From the NCBI GenBank assembly GCA_020353055.1, contig CP070686.1, forward strand, positions 496,895-557,130: a stretch of 60,236 nt of DNA, in the 5' to 3' direction. Position numbers and translations under genes: made by a program. A model generated the notes under the pieces. The model was given only the letters and a program-made list of their open reading frames with translations. It was not told the DNA's origin and did not search any database. Below are positions 50,513 to 60,236 of the stretch, piece by piece; the first letter of the stretch is position 1, and each line of letters starts with the position of its first letter. The DNA is from Caldifarciminota bacterium (GTDB lineage Bacteria > Hydrothermota > Tepidihabitantia > SM23-42).

Positions 50513-51229
50513 TTGAATATTTTACTGCTTGTCGGATTCTTCGAGTCGTTCTTATTTCCAAGAAGTGTTCTGTATGAAAGAGAATTTAATCCAGCACATC
50601 TGCACGAAAAGAAATTTGAACTGATACTCGGGAGTGAAACAAGGTACGAACTCGCAGAACTACGGGCTTTTTATTTCTATTCACGGGTAGACCGGTTCAG
50701 TATAAGATTCACTAGTTTTGGCGGGAGCCTGTATCGGGAAAATTTTTTTGAACTCGGCTTTGGATTCCCGGTTGGCGGAAAGTTCGCTCTCGGATTTAAC
50801 TTCGCGGGATTGAACAGCTGGGTTAAAGATTTGAGTAACGAATTCACCTATAGCGTAAAGGCTGGGGGTCTATACGGAGCGGAGCGTTTTACGATGAGTG
50901 TCTGGGTGAATAACATCAACGTGCCGAGGATTTCCTCCATTGATTATGCTCCCATCTCTTACACCGTGCGTTTCGAGTATCTCGTACGCGGAAATCTCAA
51001 TTTCAATATCGCTGCGTGTGGAGTGGAGACGGAAATGCCTTTCTACAAATGCGGATGTGCGTTTGCCCCTTATGACATCATAGTCATTAACCTTGGTGTT
51101 AATACAAAGCCGATCGTGATTGAGTATGGACTCAAGGTGAACGTAGGAAACATGTTTGTTTTCTACTCGGGAAATCGTCATCAACAGCTCGGCTTGACAC
51201 ACAATTTAGGGTTGGGCTTCCGCCGGTAA
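50513..51229 (+). CDS. Exported barrel-like protein of unknown function
   Basis: A 238-residue protein starting at TTG (50513) with a short hydrophobic segment (MNILLLVGFFESFLF). The rest is rich in alternating beta strands with aromatic ends (FELGFGFPVGGKFALGFNFAGL, YTVRFEYLVRGNLNF, given in part) and finishes with LTHNLGLGFRR, as outer-membrane barrels do. It lies between nfeD and the HhH/barrel gene, whose start overlaps its stop (TAATG). It resembles the PorV/UPF0164-like class only loosely. Confidence 0.6.
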   Translation: MNILLLVGFFESFLFPRSVLYEREFNPAHLHEKKFELILGSETRYELAELRAFYFYSRVDRFSIRFTSFGGSLYRENFFELGFGFPVGGKFALGFNFAGLNSWVKDLSNEFTYSVKAGGLYGAERFTMSVWVNNINVPRISSIDYAPISYTVRFEYLVRGNLNFNIAACGVETEMPFYKCGCAFAPYDIIVINLGVNTKPIVIEYGLKVNVGNMFVFYSGNRHQQLGLTHNLGLGFRR

Positions 51230-52953
51230 TGATCGTCTTTCTGTTTTTCATAGCCACTACAGAAGACGTGGTTTTCAAAACTGAACAGGAAATAGATCTT
51301 GAGTTAATCGTCGGTGATCTTGAATATCTGCGGAATCATCCTGTGGATATTAACAGCGCCGGGATCGACCAATTCACGAGGATTCCATATCTTTCATCGA
51401 ACGAAATAATGAGGATTATCGAATACCGCAACCGTTACGGGTCATTTGGATCGGTAGAAGAGTTAATCAATGTCCCTGGGATTGATCCGAGCCTCCTGCA
51501 ATTGCTCAGACCATTCATTACTATCGGCGTCAAGCGGTTTGAAATAGAGGCGCTAGACTCAAGGCTTCGCGTACGCACGGCATTACCCGGTGAAGAACGG
51601 TCCGTGGAATACTACACAAGGACGCGAGCGCGGATGGCCGAATACGGCATTAATGTGATCACCGAGAGGGATCCGTACGAGGATGATTTCTTTGACCATA
51701 ATGCGGTGGGTCTGCTCATTTATGAAGGCAAGCGGAAATTTGCCATGGGTAAATACAATTTGGACTTGGGTGCAGGTGCTGTTTTGTCGCCAGTTGGATC
51801 CTTCTTTAGAGGTATCGAATTCAGGGTTATGCTGAACGAGCGGCGTCTCATTCCCTATACCTCGACGATTGAAAACGGCGGTTTTTTCGGAGCCGCGTTT
51901 GCTGATTCTTTCTTTGTCGACTACACCCTTTTCTATTCGAACCAGAAACTCGACGGTACCGTCGATTCGCTGGGTTTTGCTCGTTCACTGGATGGGTCTG
52001 GGGAACATACCGATTCGGCATCGTCAAGCCGTAAGGATCGAATTAACGAGGAGATACTTGGATATGACATAAGATATCGGAAAGCAGATGTCCTGGTTGC
52101 CAGCCGATCCTATTTTTGTTCCTACGAACCTTCGTTCGTGACATCCGATTCGGTAGCGAGGTTCTATGGCGATGATTTCTTCTTGACGGGTCTTGAGTTC
52201 AGGTACCTCGGTGAAGAATTTATCTTCTTCAGCGAAGTTGTCCGTTCGTGGAAGAACAGCATTGGAGGTCTATTCGGATTCAGCGCGGTTTTTCCCTTTG
52301 TTGATTTCAACCTTGCCGGTAAGTATTTCCCTCGTGGTTTCTATTCACCGAAGGGTATTGAAGCGGCGGCTAACCATGCCTCCGGGACCCTCGACATAAC
52401 CCATCATTCCAGTATTATCGACGCAGGTTTTAGCCTGACACTCGATAACCGGCTCGATGAGGATACGACAAAACATGACCTCAAATTCAGCCTCGCGAAG
52501 AGACTCGGCAGACTGGATGCGAGGATAAATTTCAGAAGGAGATACAGGGCAGAGGATGTTGATCTGTCAGGTTCTGAAGTTCTTCTGCGGTTTAAGGCCA
52601 CCAGGTTTCTTTTCCTTGATCTGCGCTTCGAGGAGAAATCATTGTATAAAGAAGAAACTGAACGGGGGATATTCCTTGCGGTTGAATTGGGCCTGGATCT
52701 AAAGAGGTTGGATGCAAGGGTTAGGTACGGCATCTTTGATACGGATACGTATGCGGCACGTATTTACGCGTACGAAATAGATCTGCAAGGAATAGTGAAT
52801 AATCGCATGTTGTACGGTGACGGTGAGTACGGGTTCGTTTACTTATCGATGAGGCCGGTGCAGCAGATTAAACTGAGCATGAAGTACGCGGTTGTGAACC
52901 GCGACTCTATTTCCGACAAAAAGATAGGTGGGCAGATTGACTTCAATCTATAA
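51229..52953 (+). CDS. ComEA-type helix-hairpin-helix protein with C-terminal beta-barrel-like region
   Basis: A 574-residue exported protein. After a short signal (MIVFLFFIATT), residues 37-95 form a ComEA-like helix-hairpin-helix DNA-binding domain (DINSAGIDQFTRIPYLSSNE, YGSFGSVEELINVPGI). The remaining ~470 residues are beta-rich with repeated strand-turn patterns (FAMGKYNLDLGAGAVLS, LDARVRYGIFDTDTY) and look like an outer-membrane barrel. The mix suggests a role in DNA uptake or binding at the outer membrane. It is translationally coupled to the preceding barrel-like gene. Confidence 0.7.
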   Translation: MIVFLFFIATTEDVVFKTEQEIDLELIVGDLEYLRNHPVDINSAGIDQFTRIPYLSSNEIMRIIEYRNRYGSFGSVEELINVPGIDPSLLQLLRPFITIGVKRFEIEALDSRLRVRTALPGEERSVEYYTRTRARMAEYGINVITERDPYEDDFFDHNAVGLLIYEGKRKFAMGKYNLDLGAGAVLSPVGSFFRGIEFRVMLNERRLIPYTSTIENGGFFGAAFADSFFVDYTLFYSNQKLDGTVDSLGFARSLDGSGEHTDSASSSRKDRINEEILGYDIRYRKADVLVASRSYFCSYEPSFVTSDSVARFYGDDFFLTGLEFRYLGEEFIFFSEVVRSWKNSIGGLFGFSAVFPFVDFNLAGKYFPRGFYSPKGIEAAANHASGTLDITHHSSIIDAGFSLTLDNRLDEDTTKHDLKFSLAKRLGRLDARINFRRRYRAEDVDLSGSEVLLRFKATRFLFLDLRFEEKSLYKEETERGIFLAVELGLDLKRLDARVRYGIFDTDTYAARIYAYEIDLQGIVNNRMLYGDGEYGFVYLSMRPVQQIKLSMKYAVVNRDSISDKKIGGQIDFNL

Positions 52954-53583: not shown

Positions 53584-56106
53584 TCAGGACGCGGTTTTGA
53601 ACATTTCCACCAGAAAACGGGATGGATGCTGAAAACGCCCATGCCGCCATTTTGGATATAACAAGTAGAGTTTTTTCTGAGCACGGGTCAGCGCAACGTA
53701 ACACAGTCTTCTCTCTTCCTCAATTTCCTTCGGTGAAGACATTTTTTTGGTAAGCGGAAAAACATCTTCGACGAGCTCGACTACAAAAACCACCGGAAAT
53801 TCGAGGCCTTTTGCGCTGTGGACGGTCATCACTTTGACCAGGTCTTTGTTCCATTCCGCCAGGTCGAGTTCCTGCACGAGTCGGACCTGATTCAAGAAGT
53901 TCACCAGACTATGAGATTCTAAACTGGCTGCCAGGAACTGAAGTTCACTCACTTCAGTACTTTTTGTGCCGGTCAATTCGACAATATCATCTATCAATTT
54001 TTTGGCTTCGAGAAGCCCGCCATTCGCCAGATGGTATTCATAGACTTTCTGCGCCCGGCTCGCGTTTCGTTTAGGTATTCTAATAATATGTTTGACCCGG
54101 GCGATGAATTTGTCGGGAGTTTCTTTGTGCAAGTGGCATTCTTTGAGAGCTTCGAGGTAATCGAGGAGCGGCTTCAAGTTACTGCGCTCATATAACGATG
54201 AACCGCTGATGAGGACATGCGGCATGCGAGATTGCGCCAGTGCTTCTTGATAAGTGAGAGCAAGTTGATTCATCCGGCACAGGATAACCATGTCACCATA
54301 ACTGAAATTTCCTTTTGCGAGTTTTCTAATTTCTTTCACTACGAAATCGGCTTCATCTTGCTCTGTTTTTGCAGCATAGACGATTACGTCACTCTCGTGC
54401 CCAGCCGGGATTGCAGTTGCTTCACGTTGCATGAGGTTGCCTGCAATATCTATGATACCCTGGGCAAGACGGAAGCTGCGGTTGAGTTGGAATATTTTCG
54501 CCTTGGGGTAATCCTTTGGTACTTGGTGCATCAGTTCTCTTTTTGCGCCACGCCAACCGTAAATTGCCTGATCCGCGTCTCCCGTGAAGAATATATTTTC
54601 ATTAAAGAGGAGCCCGATTAGTTTGTATTGTGCCGGATTTATGTCCTGCAGTTCGTCGACAAAGATGTGGTCAAATGTATCCTGGTAATGTCGTCTGATA
54701 TCACTGTTTTCCTCGAGCAACCGGTTCGATAAGAGGATCAAGTCGTCGTAATCAAGGATACTGTTTTCCATCTTATGGGTTTCATATCTTCTATAGACAT
54801 CAGTGCATACACCCTCCCAGTCGTTCTTGGGTTCGAAATCCCGCGCTGTGATGCCTTCTGCCTTCAGCATCTCGATGAATCTCAACACTGCGTTAATCCG
54901 GTATTTACCGACGTCGATATCAATCTGCCGTATAATGCTCTTGGCGTCCTTGATGATAAAACCGGGATTCAGATCCAGACGTTCGGCATCGCGACGGAGA
55001 ATACGAAATCCTAATGTGTGAAGTGTGCCCACCCACAGGTCGCGGATATCAAGCCGGTTGGTTTTCTGCAATCGTTCTCTTATATCATTTGCCGCTTTGT
55101 TGGTGAACGTACAGATCAATATCCTGGAAGCCGGCAGTCCTTGTCCGAGCAGGGTATTCACCGCGTACGTGAGGGTCGTTGTTTTACCACAGCCTGCCTG
55201 GCCGTGCACGAACACTTGACCGGACAGGGATTCAATTACTTCCCTTTGTACGGGTGTCAGTTGTATTTCCGGAGTCTTTTTCGTTGGAATCCGTACCTTC
55301 TCACCGCGTATACCTTCTTCCATTTGCGTTATCTTTTCCAGGATTTCCGCTGTGCTGGGACGGGATAGTGGGTCATTTGTCAGTGCCGATAGGATTAGCT
55401 TTTCGATTTGCTCGGGGATATTGTGTCTTAGAACCGCAGGAGCAACAAACGAAGCCTTCTGGATTTTTCGTCTAAGCCCATCCAGGTTGTCATCGAGAAA
55501 CGGCGGCGCTCCGGTGAGTATTTCATAGAGCACTACACCCAAACTCCATACGTCAGATTTGTCGCTGAAACTTCCAGACCAGGATTCCGGTGCCATGTAG
55601 ATCGGTGTTCCGGCACTCGATGCTGATATCGAATCGGCGCGAATGAATTTGGCGAGACCGAAATCGGTGATCTTCACAGTGTCTCTATTCTTCCTTGTTG
55701 AGATAAGTATGTTTTCGGGTTTGAGATCTCGATGTAGAACGCTGCAGCCGTGCGCGTATACAAGGCCATCGGTGATCTGTGCTAGGATAGAGAGCGATTT
55801 CTTGATATCGATGCCGCCTTCGGTGATAATGTCACGCAGACTATCGCCTTCGATATACTCCATTACAAGCACGAATTTATTTTCGATAAAATCTATGTTG
55901 TAGAAGCGTACGATATTCGGGTGATCGAGAGAGGCTAAGAGTGTCGCTTCATCCCTTAACATGTCGATCTCTTCACGGCGCATGCGTGATATCTTGAGTG
56001 CGAAATTCTTGTCGATGATAGTATCGCGCGCGAGAAATACATCACCGAAACGTCCGCCACCGAGCCATTCTATGATTTCATATTTGCCCAGGTTTTTCAG
56101 CAGCAC
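53584..56106 (-). CDS. Fusion: Ser/Thr protein kinase + UvrD/PcrA-type SF1A helicase
   Basis: An 840-residue fusion. Residues 1-~265 are a complete Hanks-type kinase: G-loop GGGRFGDV (16-23), Lys38, HRDLKPEN (125-132), DFG (148-150), APE (172-174). Residues ~283-840 are an SF1A helicase: Walker A GQAGCGKT (302-309), TFTNKAA, DELQD (484-488), GDADQAIYGWRG (509-520), VMTVHSAKGLEFP (759-771), and the motif VI region ERRLCYVALTRAQ (798-810). No transmembrane helix or PASTA domain is seen. All catalytic motifs seem intact, but the helicase is shorter than UvrD (~720). The frame is continuous with no frameshift sign. It lies 3 nt after the ARPP-1-like gene. Confidence 0.92.
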   Translation of the reverse strand: MLLKNLGKYEIIEWLGGGRFGDVFLARDTIIDKNFALKISRMRREEIDMLRDEATLLASLDHPNIVRFYNIDFIENKFVLVMEYIEGDSLRDIITEGGIDIKKSLSILAQITDGLVYAHGCSVLHRDLKPENILISTRKNRDTVKITDFGLAKFIRADSISASSAGTPIYMAPESWSGSFSDKSDVWSLGVVLYEILTGAPPFLDDNLDGLRRKIQKASFVAPAVLRHNIPEQIEKLILSALTNDPLSRPSTAEILEKITQMEEGIRGEKVRIPTKKTPEIQLTPVQREVIESLSGQVFVHGQAGCGKTTTLTYAVNTLLGQGLPASRILICTFTNKAANDIRERLQKTNRLDIRDLWVGTLHTLGFRILRRDAERLDLNPGFIIKDAKSIIRQIDIDVGKYRINAVLRFIEMLKAEGITARDFEPKNDWEGVCTDVYRRYETHKMENSILDYDDLILLSNRLLEENSDIRRHYQDTFDHIFVDELQDINPAQYKLIGLLFNENIFFTGDADQAIYGWRGAKRELMHQVPKDYPKAKIFQLNRSFRLAQGIIDIAGNLMQREATAIPAGHESDVIVYAAKTEQDEADFVVKEIRKLAKGNFSYGDMVILCRMNQLALTYQEALAQSRMPHVLISGSSLYERSNLKPLLDYLEALKECHLHKETPDKFIARVKHIIRIPKRNASRAQKVYEYHLANGGLLEAKKLIDDIVELTGTKSTEVSELQFLAASLESHSLVNFLNQVRLVQELDLAEWNKDLVKVMTVHSAKGLEFPVVFVVELVEDVFPLTKKMSSPKEIEEERRLCYVALTRAQKKLYLLYPKWRHGRFQHPSRFLVEMFKTAS

Positions 56107-56109
56107 AGA

Positions 56110-56991
56110 TTATTTCGGGAAAACGGATAGATGTATTACACGACCGTCATGAAAGAGGCCCTGTCCCACACACCTTTTGTCTTTCAATGAAAAATGATGC
56201 GTGTCTTTGGAGAATTTTTTCTTATTGATCAAATTTGTTATATCGTTGAGAAAACCCCGGGTGTCGACCTGCTCGCTGGCAGTTTTGCGGTGCTCGATGG
56301 CATCGAGCGCATAACTGCGCACGAGTTTCTTCTCAAATTTACGGTAGGCAGGATGGTTCAGGAATATATCACAACCCAGTATTTTCCTCCCTGCTACACC
56401 AATAAAGCCGGCCGTGTTGTGATTGAGGGTTTCGAAGTCTTCAAGGTATCGAGCGATTTCGTCTTCAAGATTATCATATATGTCGTGCATCGATGATGTT
56501 GTGGAGAGCGTTCGTGTGACAGTCATCTTGCGCTCGATTTCGTGCCAGATTTTTTCCTGCAGACCGTTCCCCTTCTTACCGCGACGCGAGAGAATAGCGC
56601 GGATCCCCGGGTAGGAGCAGTATCCTGTTTGAAACGAACCGATGTCTTTCCACCTGCCTTCTTCGGCGCAGATAACCGGAATTTCGTTTGTCGACCTGGC
56701 GGTTACAAGTGTCGAATCAGCGACGATGCGGTTCTGTAGGGAACCGAATATTTCCTCGCCATCCACCATGAGTACGGGTTCATCTCCCTGATTGTCGAAT
56801 GATATGCGGTTGATGTCCGGTGGATCAAGTTCGGCGAATTCACCCTGCGCAGTCGCCAGGATATCTTCAAGTGAGGAGATCTCAATACCATTATCTGAAG
56901 GCCGGGAGATCGCATAGATTGACAGGTTTCTCAAGAAAACTGGCTGGGCGATTTCAAGATCTTGGAGAAAACCTTTCATATCAGGACTCAC
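56110..56991 (-). CDS. ARPP-1-like (DUF6569) protein
   Basis: A 293-residue protein, probably cytoplasmic. Its core PVLMVDGEEIFGSLQNRIV (about residues 72-90) then VICAEEGRW matches the signature of the ARPP-1/DUF6569 family (dGEEl.GakQNRi, CVEqgRW). The family was defined from gene neighbourhoods with ADP-ribosylglycohydrolases and rhodanese-like phosphatases; its activity is unknown. GTG at 56991 is the assumed start; an ATG at 56979 is an alternative. It overlaps the upstream lipoprotein gene by 11 nt and is 3 nt from the kinase-helicase gene. Confidence 0.7.
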   Translation of the reverse strand: MSPDMKGFLQDLEIAQPVFLRNLSIYAISRPSDNGIEISSLEDILATAQGEFAELDPPDINRISFDNQGDEPVLMVDGEEIFGSLQNRIVADSTLVTARSTNEIPVICAEEGRWKDIGSFQTGYCSYPGIRAILSRRGKKGNGLQEKIWHEIERKMTVTRTLSTTSSMHDIYDNLEDEIARYLEDFETLNHNTAGFIGVAGRKILGCDIFLNHPAYRKFEKKLVRSYALDAIEHRKTASEQVDTRGFLNDITNLINKKKFSKDTHHFSLKDKRCVGQGLFHDGRVIHLSVFPK

Positions 56992-57403
56992 GCCAGAGGT
57001 AGAATCTTAGGATATCTGACCAAACCGTGTAATCTGTCCAGTGTGAACTACCGGCGCGTATTCTTGCATAATAAGTGACCCTGCTCGTTCCATAGTAGTT
57101 TAGAAAAATGAATACTCCCGGCGCGGTGGACTGAGAAATATCGGCAGTAATGAACGAAGGTATTGTGTCGGTCTGGATCTGAAATATTTCCGAGCCGGAC
57201 GGTGCTGTCCAGTCGAAAAAAACCGGACCACTACAAATAACGGTATCAAGCAGAGGCTCTATGATCTCGGGAGGTACCGGCGGGGGTATTTTCTGTTCTT
57301 GAGGATTGTACTCTTCAGGGTCTGTGCATGAAATACCTGCCATCAGCACAACGACGGAGATATGAGTGATGACTGACAGCAGACTGCCTATGCGGTTGAA
57401 CAT
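56981..57403 (-). CDS. Small lipoprotein (paralogue 2)
   Basis: A 140-residue lipoprotein if begun at the ATG at 57403; a GTG at 57409 is also in frame but only 3 nt past the -10 box. The signal peptide ends in MAGISC (lipobox). A Pro-rich linker (PPPVPPEIIEPL) leads to an FnIII-like sandwich with VFFDWTAPSGSEIFQIQ and TYYARIRAGSSHWTDYT. It is a clear paralogue of the gene at 57500-57949. It overlaps the ARPP-1-like gene by 11 nt and appears to be first in that operon. Confidence 0.7.
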   Translation of the reverse strand: MFNRIGSLLSVITHISVVVLMAGISCTDPEEYNPQEQKIPPPVPPEIIEPLLDTVICSGPVFFDWTAPSGSEIFQIQTDTIPSFITADISQSTAPGVFIFLNYYGTSRVTYYARIRAGSSHWTDYTVWSDILRFYLWRES

Positions 57404-57412
57404 ATCCACACT

Positions 57413-57499: not shown

Positions 57500-57949
57500 T
57501 TATGGATCTGGTCGCAGATAGAATCTTCGAACTTCAGACCACTCGGTATAATTGGTCCACCGTGTACTGCCGGCGCGTATTCTTGCGTAATAAGTGGCTC
57601 TATCTTCATAACGGTATAGCTGAACATAAGTGGGCGGATATGAGTATTGAAGTAACTCGGCCGTTTCAAAAGTGATTAGACTATCGGTCTGGAGTTGGTA
57701 TATTTCAGCGCCGCCGACGGTATTCCAGTCGAAAAAGACAAGAGGAAAAGGTGAAGAACTACATAGGTTCGTGTCGGGTAGCGGGTAGAGCAAGGTTGGT
57801 GGTGCTGGCGGTGGATCGAGCGGTTCGTTTGGATCGTATTCATCAGGGTCCTTACAACCAGCACTGGCGAGCAAGACAACAAACGCAAGGGTGAAACCAA
57901 TTAACACAGTATCCTTCAGGCGCACTTTTATTTTTGCATAGGCGAACAT
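57500..57949 (-). CDS. Small lipoprotein (paralogue 1)
   Basis: A 149-residue lipoprotein; the signal peptide ends in LLASAGC. A Pro-rich linker (EPLDPPPAPPTLLYPL) and an FnIII-like sandwich (VFFDWNTVGGAEIYQLQ, TYYARIRAGSTRWTNYTEWS) match its neighbour closely. AAGGAGGCGCC lies before the ATG. It starts 13 nt after the TonB-dependent receptor gene on the same strand, so it may be a surface lipoprotein partner of that receptor. Confidence 0.7.
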   Translation of the reverse strand: MFAYAKIKVRLKDTVLIGFTLAFVVLLASAGCKDPDEYDPNEPLDPPPAPPTLLYPLPDTNLCSSSPFPLVFFDWNTVGGAEIYQLQTDSLITFETAELLQYSYPPTYVQLYRYEDRATYYARIRAGSTRWTNYTEWSEVRRFYLRPDP

Positions 57950-57962
57950 GGCGCCTCCTTTT

Positions 57963-60236
57963 TTAAAAACTCATTTGCAGGGCAATCCGTGCCCTGCGCG
58001 GTGCTGTATATGCGTTGACCCAGTCATCTGTAGCATGATAGACTGCGGTGTAAGATTCGTACTCTTCGGACGGGGTGATGAGACCATCGTGATTTGCGTC
58101 GGCTGCCGGGCTGTAGGAGCGATGTTCAAAAGTGTAGTAATCATGGAAATCCCAACGCTGCATTTCAGCGATTAAAGGAGCGTGTGGTGCGATCTCGTAT
58201 CGCTCATCAAGCAGATTCAAAACCTCAAAGCTTAGATCGAAAGTGAGATTAGCCAGCTTTATGGATTTGGACAACACACAATCGATCTGCTTCTGAGAGG
58301 GTAGCCGGAGAACCCCGCGCTCTTCGTATTTACCTTCGGGTCCCGGCGGTATGTAGGGGAAACCTTTGCCGAAGTAGGCGAAGAGATGAAATCGTGACCG
58401 AAACGGCAGTTGTACAGCACCCTGAATGAATAATCGATGCCGTTGGTCAAAGTCAAGATAGTATTCTTCAACCGGCTTTGGGATATCCGGATCGGCATAC
58501 TCCCCTGCAAAGGAGCTGGTGCCCTTGGTCCACGAAAGTGTGTAGGATATCTTGCCGGTGAATATTGAGTTCGAGAATTCAAGTATTGTTTCGACGCCTT
58601 TGATGCTAGCGTATTCGAGATTGTCATATTGCGTATAACTTCGTGGGAGTGCTTCCACTTCGCGTGTGCCGATGAGATCGGATACTTCTTTTTGGAAGAC
58701 TGTCACTGTGCTGCTAATGTGTGTGGTAATTTCGCCCTGCAGTCCGATTTCGAAACTGGTTGTCTTCTCGACCTCCATATCGGGGTTCCCGACAATTACC
58801 CAATAGGTTGAAAAAGGTACATACTGGGGCAGCGGTAGAATTGTGTAATAATCATACATCTGATAGTACAGCGGTGGTTGGGCATATTTCCCGATATTCG
58901 CCCGGAAGATGAATTTGTCGGTCACTTGGAATGAAATACCGATTCTCGGTGAGATAAAGGCCTTTGGCAGTATACCTTCGACGGCTGGGTCGAAGTAGTC
59001 ATACCGGCATCCGAGTTTTGCATACACTCCGCTGAAATCGATATTGTCCTGTACATAGAAGAAGTATTCTTTTGGCTTGTATCGATAGGCGTCGATGATC
59101 GGGTCAGTGGTGTCACTGGCGAAGTACGCAAAATTCTCGAAGTCATGATAACTGTATTCAAAGCCTGCTTTGAGCTCGTGGTACCTATGGATTTGCATAT
59201 TCGTAGACAGGTTCGCCTTGAGCACATCAGAGGATTTCTTCTTGTATTCCGGAAAATCGCCGGCGCTAAAAGGTCTACGAACGTACACGCCGTATGGGTT
59301 CTTGATACTTACGCTTGGATAATCGAGCGTGAGATAGTCTTTGAATATATATTCATCGAATAAATCATATGGCCCAGGTTCGCGCACCCCATATATATTT
59401 TTCGTATGCAGACGGCTGAGGGTTAGGTTGAACAACCTTTGAGTGTTCGGCAGGAAGTTGACGTTGATCACCTGAAAGTTGCCGTCCTGCAGATCCGAAC
59501 GATAGTGATCAAGCAGGAACATCCACATTGTTGCATACCGGTCGAACTGACTTCTTGATTTCGCGCCGCTGATACTGACTTTTATTTTGCCTGATGGTAT
59601 ATATAGCCACTTTCCATACAATGAATAGTCCTGACGCTGTTTGTGCCACAGCAGATACAGGCGCGGATCCCAGTCGTCAGTTACCATCGCGTCGAAAGAA
59701 AGAAATCCTTTGAATCTTGAAGACACCGGTAAATGAATCGAGGATTGGACGTTTTGATAGCCGAAATCATAGTACTCGGGCATGATCTTCTCGGTCTTCC
59801 CGTATACCTTCATTTTCAAATTGCCGGCCGGATATGCAGTTATGATATTGATGATGCCGGACATGGCGCGGCCGTATTCGGCATCAAAACCGCCGGGTAG
59901 AAATATGATCTCGTCGACCACACCCTTGGAAAGAGTGATCGCCGTGTGTCCGGTTTGGGGGTCGATGATCGAAACGTTGTCGATCATATACTGGACCTCC
60001 GTGGCACGGCCGCCACGCACATGAAGCGCCGTGTCGGTACGGGCAACCGCCGCCTGGAAAGCCACCAGCTCGATCGCATAATCGACCGGTAAATAAGGAA
60101 GCTCAGTCTTGCGGATGAGATAGGTGGTACCAACCATGTCTTTTGACACCGCCGGCCGTTCACTGGTCACGGTTACCGGTGAAAGCTCTATTGCCGAAGG
60201 CATCAGGCTGACCTCAAGGCGAACGGTCTTATCGTA
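57963..60236 (-). CDS. TonB-dependent outer-membrane receptor (partial, N terminus outside window)
   Basis: The frame is open to the window edge, giving at least 757 residues; the text before the first ATG (YDKTVRLEVSL) looks like the end of a carboxypeptidase-regulatory-like N-terminal domain, so the true start lies beyond 60236. A plug domain follows (about 100 residues: VRGGRATEVQYMIDNVSI and DAEYGRAMSGIINIITA), then a 22-strand-type barrel ending in the usual aromatic (RARIALQMSF). Near the C terminus DANHDGLITPSEEYE is like an EF-hand calcium loop. It is likely to import a large or scarce substrate; which one is unknown. Confidence 0.88.
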   Translation of the reverse strand, partial: YDKTVRLEVSLMPSAIELSPVTVTSERPAVSKDMVGTTYLIRKTELPYLPVDYAIELVAFQAAVARTDTALHVRGGRATEVQYMIDNVSIIDPQTGHTAITLSKGVVDEIIFLPGGFDAEYGRAMSGIINIITAYPAGNLKMKVYGKTEKIMPEYYDFGYQNVQSSIHLPVSSRFKGFLSFDAMVTDDWDPRLYLLWHKQRQDYSLYGKWLYIPSGKIKVSISGAKSRSQFDRYATMWMFLLDHYRSDLQDGNFQVINVNFLPNTQRLFNLTLSRLHTKNIYGVREPGPYDLFDEYIFKDYLTLDYPSVSIKNPYGVYVRRPFSAGDFPEYKKKSSDVLKANLSTNMQIHRYHELKAGFEYSYHDFENFAYFASDTTDPIIDAYRYKPKEYFFYVQDNIDFSGVYAKLGCRYDYFDPAVEGILPKAFISPRIGISFQVTDKFIFRANIGKYAQPPLYYQMYDYYTILPLPQYVPFSTYWVIVGNPDMEVEKTTSFEIGLQGEITTHISSTVTVFQKEVSDLIGTREVEALPRSYTQYDNLEYASIKGVETILEFSNSIFTGKISYTLSWTKGTSSFAGEYADPDIPKPVEEYYLDFDQRHRLFIQGAVQLPFRSRFHLFAYFGKGFPYIPPGPEGKYEERGVLRLPSQKQIDCVLSKSIKLANLTFDLSFEVLNLLDERYEIAPHAPLIAEMQRWDFHDYYTFEHRSYSPAADANHDGLITPSEEYESYTAVYHATDDWVNAYTAPRRARIALQMSF

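Follow-up and report, generated by a model that had tools for sequence, protein, structure and literature searches.

A Hanks-type Ser/Thr kinase fused to a PcrA/UvrD-like helicase and conserved in candidate phylum WOR-3

The fusion gene and its two halves

Within the window analyzed here (the whole stretch of 60,236 nucleotides of DNA from an uncultured bacterium of candidate phylum WOR-3), a single gene encodes a protein in which a Hanks-type Ser/Thr kinase (residues 9–258) is followed by a variable linker of 24 residues and a PcrA/UvrD-like SF1A helicase (residues 283–840). A gene of the ARPP-1 family lies directly upstream (Table 1). The initial annotation had described one open frame with full sets of kinase and SF1A helicase motifs, and all of the motifs that it named are present and kept in orthologues. 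Pfam placed Pkinase at residues 9–258 (E = 6.6e-57), UvrD-helicase at 283–534 (E = 5.3e-60), and UvrD_C (E = 2.5e-42), with both helicase matches falling within 283–817, and found no further sensor domain (PASTA, TPR, or NERD) in the protein. The source contig is the whole assembly, a single contig of 2.69 Mb that is 97% complete.

Table 1. Coordinates of the fusion gene, its domains and motifs, and the adjoining ARPP-1 gene
Feature	Position in window	Strand	Basis or conservation
Kinase-helicase fusion gene, 840 aa	53584..56106	-	GTG start 56104-56106, TGA stop 53584-53586, unbroken frame
Hanks-type Ser/Thr kinase domain, residues 1-258, PknB-like, RD kinase	55333..56106	-	Pfam PF00069
Catalytic Lys38 codon	55993..55995	-	K in 49/49 orthologues
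HRD motif, codons 125-127	55726..55734	-	H, D 49/49; R 48/49 orthologues
DFG motif, codons 148-150	55657..55665	-	49/49 orthologues
Variable linker, residues 259-282, low model confidence	55261..55332	-	Orthologue alignment; model pLDDT
SF1A (PcrA/UvrD/Rep-like) helicase, residues 283-840, without PcrA C-terminal extension	53587..55260	-	Pfam, PcrA alignment, Foldseek
Walker A GQAGCGKT, residues 302-309	55180..55203	-	G305, G307, K308 49/49; T309 48/49
Motif II DELQD, residues 484-488	54643..54657	-	D484, Q487, D488 49/49; E485 48/49
2B-like helical region, ~residues 645-746	53869..54174	-	PcrA 1pjr and own-genome paralogue alignments; helices in model
Motif V VHSAKGLEF, residues 762-770	53797..53823	-	K766, G767 49/49
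Motif VI ALTRAQ, residues 805-810	53677..53694	-	T807, R808 49/49
ARPP-1 gene (PF20208), 293 aa, directly upstream of fusion	56110..56991	-	Pfam E 1.3e-58

The kinase half carries the G-loop, VAIK lysine, alpha-C glutamate, HRD, DFG, and APE (residues 172–174) elements that define Hanks-type kinases. K38, E53, D127, N132, and D148 were invariant in 49 orthologues, as were S163 and T167 of the activation loop in an alignment of 18 sequences. The best structural match to this half of the model was the kinase domain of PknB (6b2p; Foldseek TMt, 0.88), and the score against the PknB-type family profile was 210 bits, below its cut-off of 450. Thus, the kinase, which is probably cytoplasmic, is apparently catalytically complete, and protein kinase activity is predicted. 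A complete RD-type catalytic domain is common to the fusion and to PknB/StkP-type Hanks kinases; unlike the PASTA kinases (PknB/Stk1), however, the fusion gave no Pfam match to a PASTA repeat, and the helicase stands in the place of that sensor.

The helicase half contains Walker A, DExx, and motifs III to VI in the order seen in the SF1A UvrD-like superfamily, with motif III at residues 509–520. Across the 49 orthologues G305, G307, K308, D484, Q487, D488, G509, D510, Q513, R519, R546, K766, T807, and R808 were invariant; W518 was replaced by F in 11, and a few other residues differed in one or two sequences. Residues 283–838 aligned co-linearly with PcrA 11–640, leaving the conserved core complete, and the best Foldseek match was PcrA (1pjr; E = 1.3e-35), with UvrD matched as well. 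The half therefore appears catalytically complete, and unwinding activity is predicted. All of the SF1A motifs are shared with PcrA, UvrD, and Rep, from which the fusion differs by its N-terminal kinase, a shorter 2B-like region, and the lack of a C-terminal extension. Its scores also fell below the NCBIfam equivalog cut-offs for PcrA (382 versus 911 bits), Rep (315 versus 951), and helicase II (325 versus 965 and 303 versus 1144). A separate PcrA-like protein of approximately 600 to 700 residues is present in most of the genomes surveyed, and the fusion may accordingly be regarded as an added, specialized helicase. The genome studied here also encodes a third UvrD-like protein (L003, C1:1720765-1722060; 934 codons) that has diverged far from the other two, the PcrA-like one and the fusion.

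The AlphaFold2 model of the whole protein had a pLDDT of 79 and a pTM of 0.56, with pLDDT below 50 at residues 265–279. Since the linker was poorly predicted, the model leaves the placement of the kinase relative to the helicase unsettled. In alignments of orthologues, the domain order and the short length of the linker were constant while its sequence drifted; against congeneric relatives, 25 to 58% of linker amino acids had changed, versus 17 to 32% in the domains.

Spread, selection, and descent

The initial annotation proposed that the spread of this architecture be mapped, and genome surveys place it in WOR-3 and in two small other phyla. At a threshold of E <= 1e-140, orthologues were found in 62 of 147 genomes of the phylum, a few of them cut by contig ends, and one further contig-edge fragment with both domains was seen in WOR-3 genome G130. 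Within its own family, 21 of 23 genomes had the fusion; one of the remaining two held a C-terminal fragment, located on a short contig, and the other held none. It was also present in all four genomes of the order's second family. Elsewhere in the class, several families had it, and the survey found whole families without it. Outside WOR-3, orthologues with the same domain order were found in G160, the only genome of its phylum in the collection, and in five of the nine genomes that represent G314's phylum. Two partly overlapping surveys of approximately 390 genomes each yielded no further fusion at the thresholds used and one extra match, in G159, to the helicase only; because only the two best first-look candidates per genome were scored, a rare miss is possible.

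The initial annotation had raised an assembly error joining two separate genes as a finding that would overturn it. This explanation, or its frameshift equivalent, is refuted by recurrence: the identical joined frame in 62 WOR-3 genomes excludes chance or misassembly, orthologues extend to the two other phyla, and the fusion frames contain no internal stops, so that an artifact linking two unconnected genes has a vanishingly small probability. A mobile or viral origin was also rejected. None of 2418 matching plasmid records and none of 159 matching phage records covered at least 80% of the query at one place; among the matches listed, the best covered the helicase half only, and no relative of the fusion was confirmed on viral contigs.

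Motifs of both halves aligned without loss in 30 orthologues. Codon differences from three congeneric relatives fell mostly at third positions on either side of the joint, with the linker looser; both halves are under purifying selection. Together with the invariant or nearly invariant catalytic residues, this pattern of substitution suggests that both activities are needed, and it shows that both enzymes have been retained by their host bacteria.

A tree was built from the helicase halves of 49 fusions, 12 PcrA-like proteins encoded by related genomes, and the paralogue from the same genome. In it all of the fusions grouped in a single clade (support, 0.91) that lies apart from the PcrA clade. 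Since the fused helicases stand apart in this way from the PcrA-like helicases of the same and related genomes, a single ancient fusion event followed by joint vertical inheritance is probable. In the 49-orthologue set, patristic distances measured on the kinase half correlated with those measured on the helicase half (r = 0.93), which is what co-inheritance would produce although it is not a formal test of congruence, and the trees of the two halves had 22 of 46 splits in common.

The ARPP-1 neighbor and the wider surroundings

The ARPP-1 gene, a conserved neighbor that the initial annotation missed, ends 3 nt before the GTG of the fusion. Its product matched the Pfam family over essentially its full profile (positions 2–297 of 297; 199 bits versus a gathering score of 27). 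Among 50 loci from separate genomes of three phyla, ARPP-1 stood next to the fusion in 39, and it is a conserved operon partner. It lay upstream in 37 loci (29 of the first 30, all of the fusion's own class; six in the two other phyla; G141; and G040) and downstream in two (G121 and G122), indicating that the link has survived rearrangement or been re-made after it. L015 and L016 are among the few loci with several hundred bases between the two genes. The remaining 11 loci, ten from other WOR-3 families plus G037, had no adjacent copy, so ARPP-1 is not strictly required; in one of the ten, L114, the upstream sequence is too short to judge. Nor is the ARPP-1 family tied to the kinase, since genomes of the class commonly carry another ARPP-1 gene at a different place (in the genome studied here, its neighbors there are PdxJ, RNA methyltransferase, and DnaJ genes) and some genomes have ARPP-1 without the fusion.

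According to the Pfam description alone, the name ARPP-1 ties the family to the ADP-ribosylglycohydrolases. The AlphaFold model was confident (pLDDT, 91), but no relative of solved structure was found by sequence, and a fold search against the PDB gave nothing convincing (best Z, 3.9 over 58 residues; best Foldseek E, 0.068); the modeled fold is possibly one without a solved representative. One explanation of the linkage is that the two genes form a signaling unit, with ARPP-1 as the target or the partner of the kinase-helicase, and that the pair serves as a switch for DNA damage or NAD/ADP-ribose stress. The adjacency over three phyla, on either side of the fusion, favors this idea, but the lack of a convincing structural match, the loci without an adjacent copy, and the occurrence of ARPP-1 apart from the fusion make it rather improbable. 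The conserved neighbor is nonetheless a candidate substrate and offers a first handle on what the ARPP-1 family does.

An anti-phage defense protein, built from a Gabija-like helicase joined to a PD-T4-6- or PglW-like kinase, was also considered. The top PADLOC matches were GajB for the helicase half and mad6/PD-T4-6 for the kinase half; however, such matches are expected from a library limited to defense-related helicases and kinases. GajB of Gabija is a UvrD-like helicase and PglW of BREX, MAD6, and PD-T4-6 are Ser/Thr kinases, as in the fusion, and to our knowledge none of the four pairs a kinase with a helicase. For the fusion, in contrast to these systems, no GajA, NERD domain, or defense neighbors were found. 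No adjacent GajA nuclease was present, Pfam identifying the neighbors as ARPP-1 and a VTT-domain protein, the latter encoded on the flank of the fusion in the window; there was no Pfam match to NERD, and the PglW score was 128 bits versus a cut-off of 990. In other lineages the flanks encode, among others, an M48 peptidase, a radical SAM enzyme, a Mur ligase, tRNA synthetases, a glycosyltransferase, and a CheW-like protein, and the flanks examined showed no defense gene and no mobile element. Given these housekeeping surroundings, the conservation of the family throughout its own family and order, and the lack of finds on plasmids, phages, or viral contigs, a defense role has little support and is very improbable. 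The initial annotation had named DNA repair, signaling, or defense; repair or signaling stands as the most plausible class, and defense is not supported.

Several other genes of the window may be recorded here. At 51229-52953, near an NfeD-like gene, lies a conserved neighbor in the genus that encodes 574 residues, with an N-terminal sequence resembling a helix-hairpin-helix (ComEA-like, by eye) and a long remainder. Two tandem, mutually similar paralogues for small secreted or lipoprotein-like products (56981-57409 and 57500-57949) belong to no Pfam family; in several related genomes, similar genes occupy the corresponding position. A TonB-dependent-receptor-like protein (by eye) is encoded at 57963-60203, and two tandem copies occur at the related loci L034, L035, and L038.

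Proposed working of the fusion

Each half belongs to a well-known family, and their combination is apparently undescribed. Kinase modules and UvrD modules are both encountered among NERD-domain proteins; the fusion differs in having no NERD domain detectable by Pfam, and nothing on a NERD-type kinase/UvrD fusion was found in the literature searched. The initial annotation knew of no described system with this pairing, and this stands for the open literature searched, in which the Pkinase plus UvrD architecture was not found, but such absence is weak evidence because subscription papers were mostly beyond reach.

Bacteria have many Hanks kinases, whose ties to DNA replication and repair are poorly known, with YabT one of the few cases. 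The conserved physical join described here makes a connection between kinase and DNA directly testable in vitro. We favor, with a probability of roughly 0.45, a real, ancient, and vertically inherited bifunctional protein that acts as a DNA-responsive Hanks kinase, with the SF1A helicase as its sensory or targeting module. The observed basis for this reading is the architecture, the intact active sites, the conservation, the single clade, and the linkage to the ARPP-1 gene; DNA-dependent activation of the kinase, its substrates, and a role in replication or repair are inferred. Since the joint protein is intact in dozens of species and usually sits beside a second conserved gene, DNA processing and protein phosphorylation are probably coupled through it.

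By analogy with its family, the helicase half would bind single-stranded DNA or forked junctions and translocate with ATP. Engagement with DNA may bring two molecules together or alter the contact between kinase and helicase, upon which the RD-type kinase would autophosphorylate its activation loop. Targets of the activated kinase could then be partners in DNA processing, the fusion protein itself, or the ARPP-1 protein encoded beside it, and stalled forks or gaps would in this way be reported to the cell. The reading is reasonable in that direct activation of a bacterial kinase by DNA has precedents in YabT (PMC3708118) and in the GHKL kinase CapK, which is activated by single-stranded DNA (PMC13373217); PMC4754617 is cited in further support. 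Unlike the fusion, these precedents lack a helicase, and CapK does not belong to the Hanks kinases. The closest analogy in working is YabT of Bacillus subtilis, a DNA-activated Hanks kinase (PMC3708118, PMC6333020). In YabT, DNA is bound by a short basic stretch; the protein also has a transmembrane helix, and it has no helicase.

Alternatively, the kinase may be the input, with autophosphorylation switching the helicase on or off and the usual 2B regulation handed over to the kinase. In alignments the 2B-like region of the fusion is approximately 70 residues shorter than that of PcrA. Since 2B restrains unwinding in Rep and UvrD, a regulatory role may sit elsewhere, perhaps in the kinase. An RD kinase with conserved Ser/Thr residues in its activation loop would suit such gating, and the short linker could permit action in cis. 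However, the kinase half has no recognizable signal-input domain, so that the signal would have to be fed in from outside, and no conserved phosphosite was noticed in the helicase half. We consider this explanation, the main rival of the DNA-responsive kinase, somewhat less likely than the latter. A unit formed with ARPP-1 is compatible with either direction of control.

A broader and speculative extension of the DNA-responsive kinase is a signaling enzyme of WOR-3 and its allies in which the SF1A motor is the kinase's built-in DNA sensor and ARPP-1 its target or partner, a bacterial counterpart, in logic and not by homology, of the checkpoint kinases of eukaryotes. Such an enzyme would be previously undescribed. 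As for other phosphorylation genes in the genome studied here, no PF13672 match, and hence no PP2C phosphatase counterpart, was found. Pkinase matches in this genome number eight, and outside the window (C1:437786-443449) three Ser/Thr kinase genes, each approximately 765 codons long, stand in a row.
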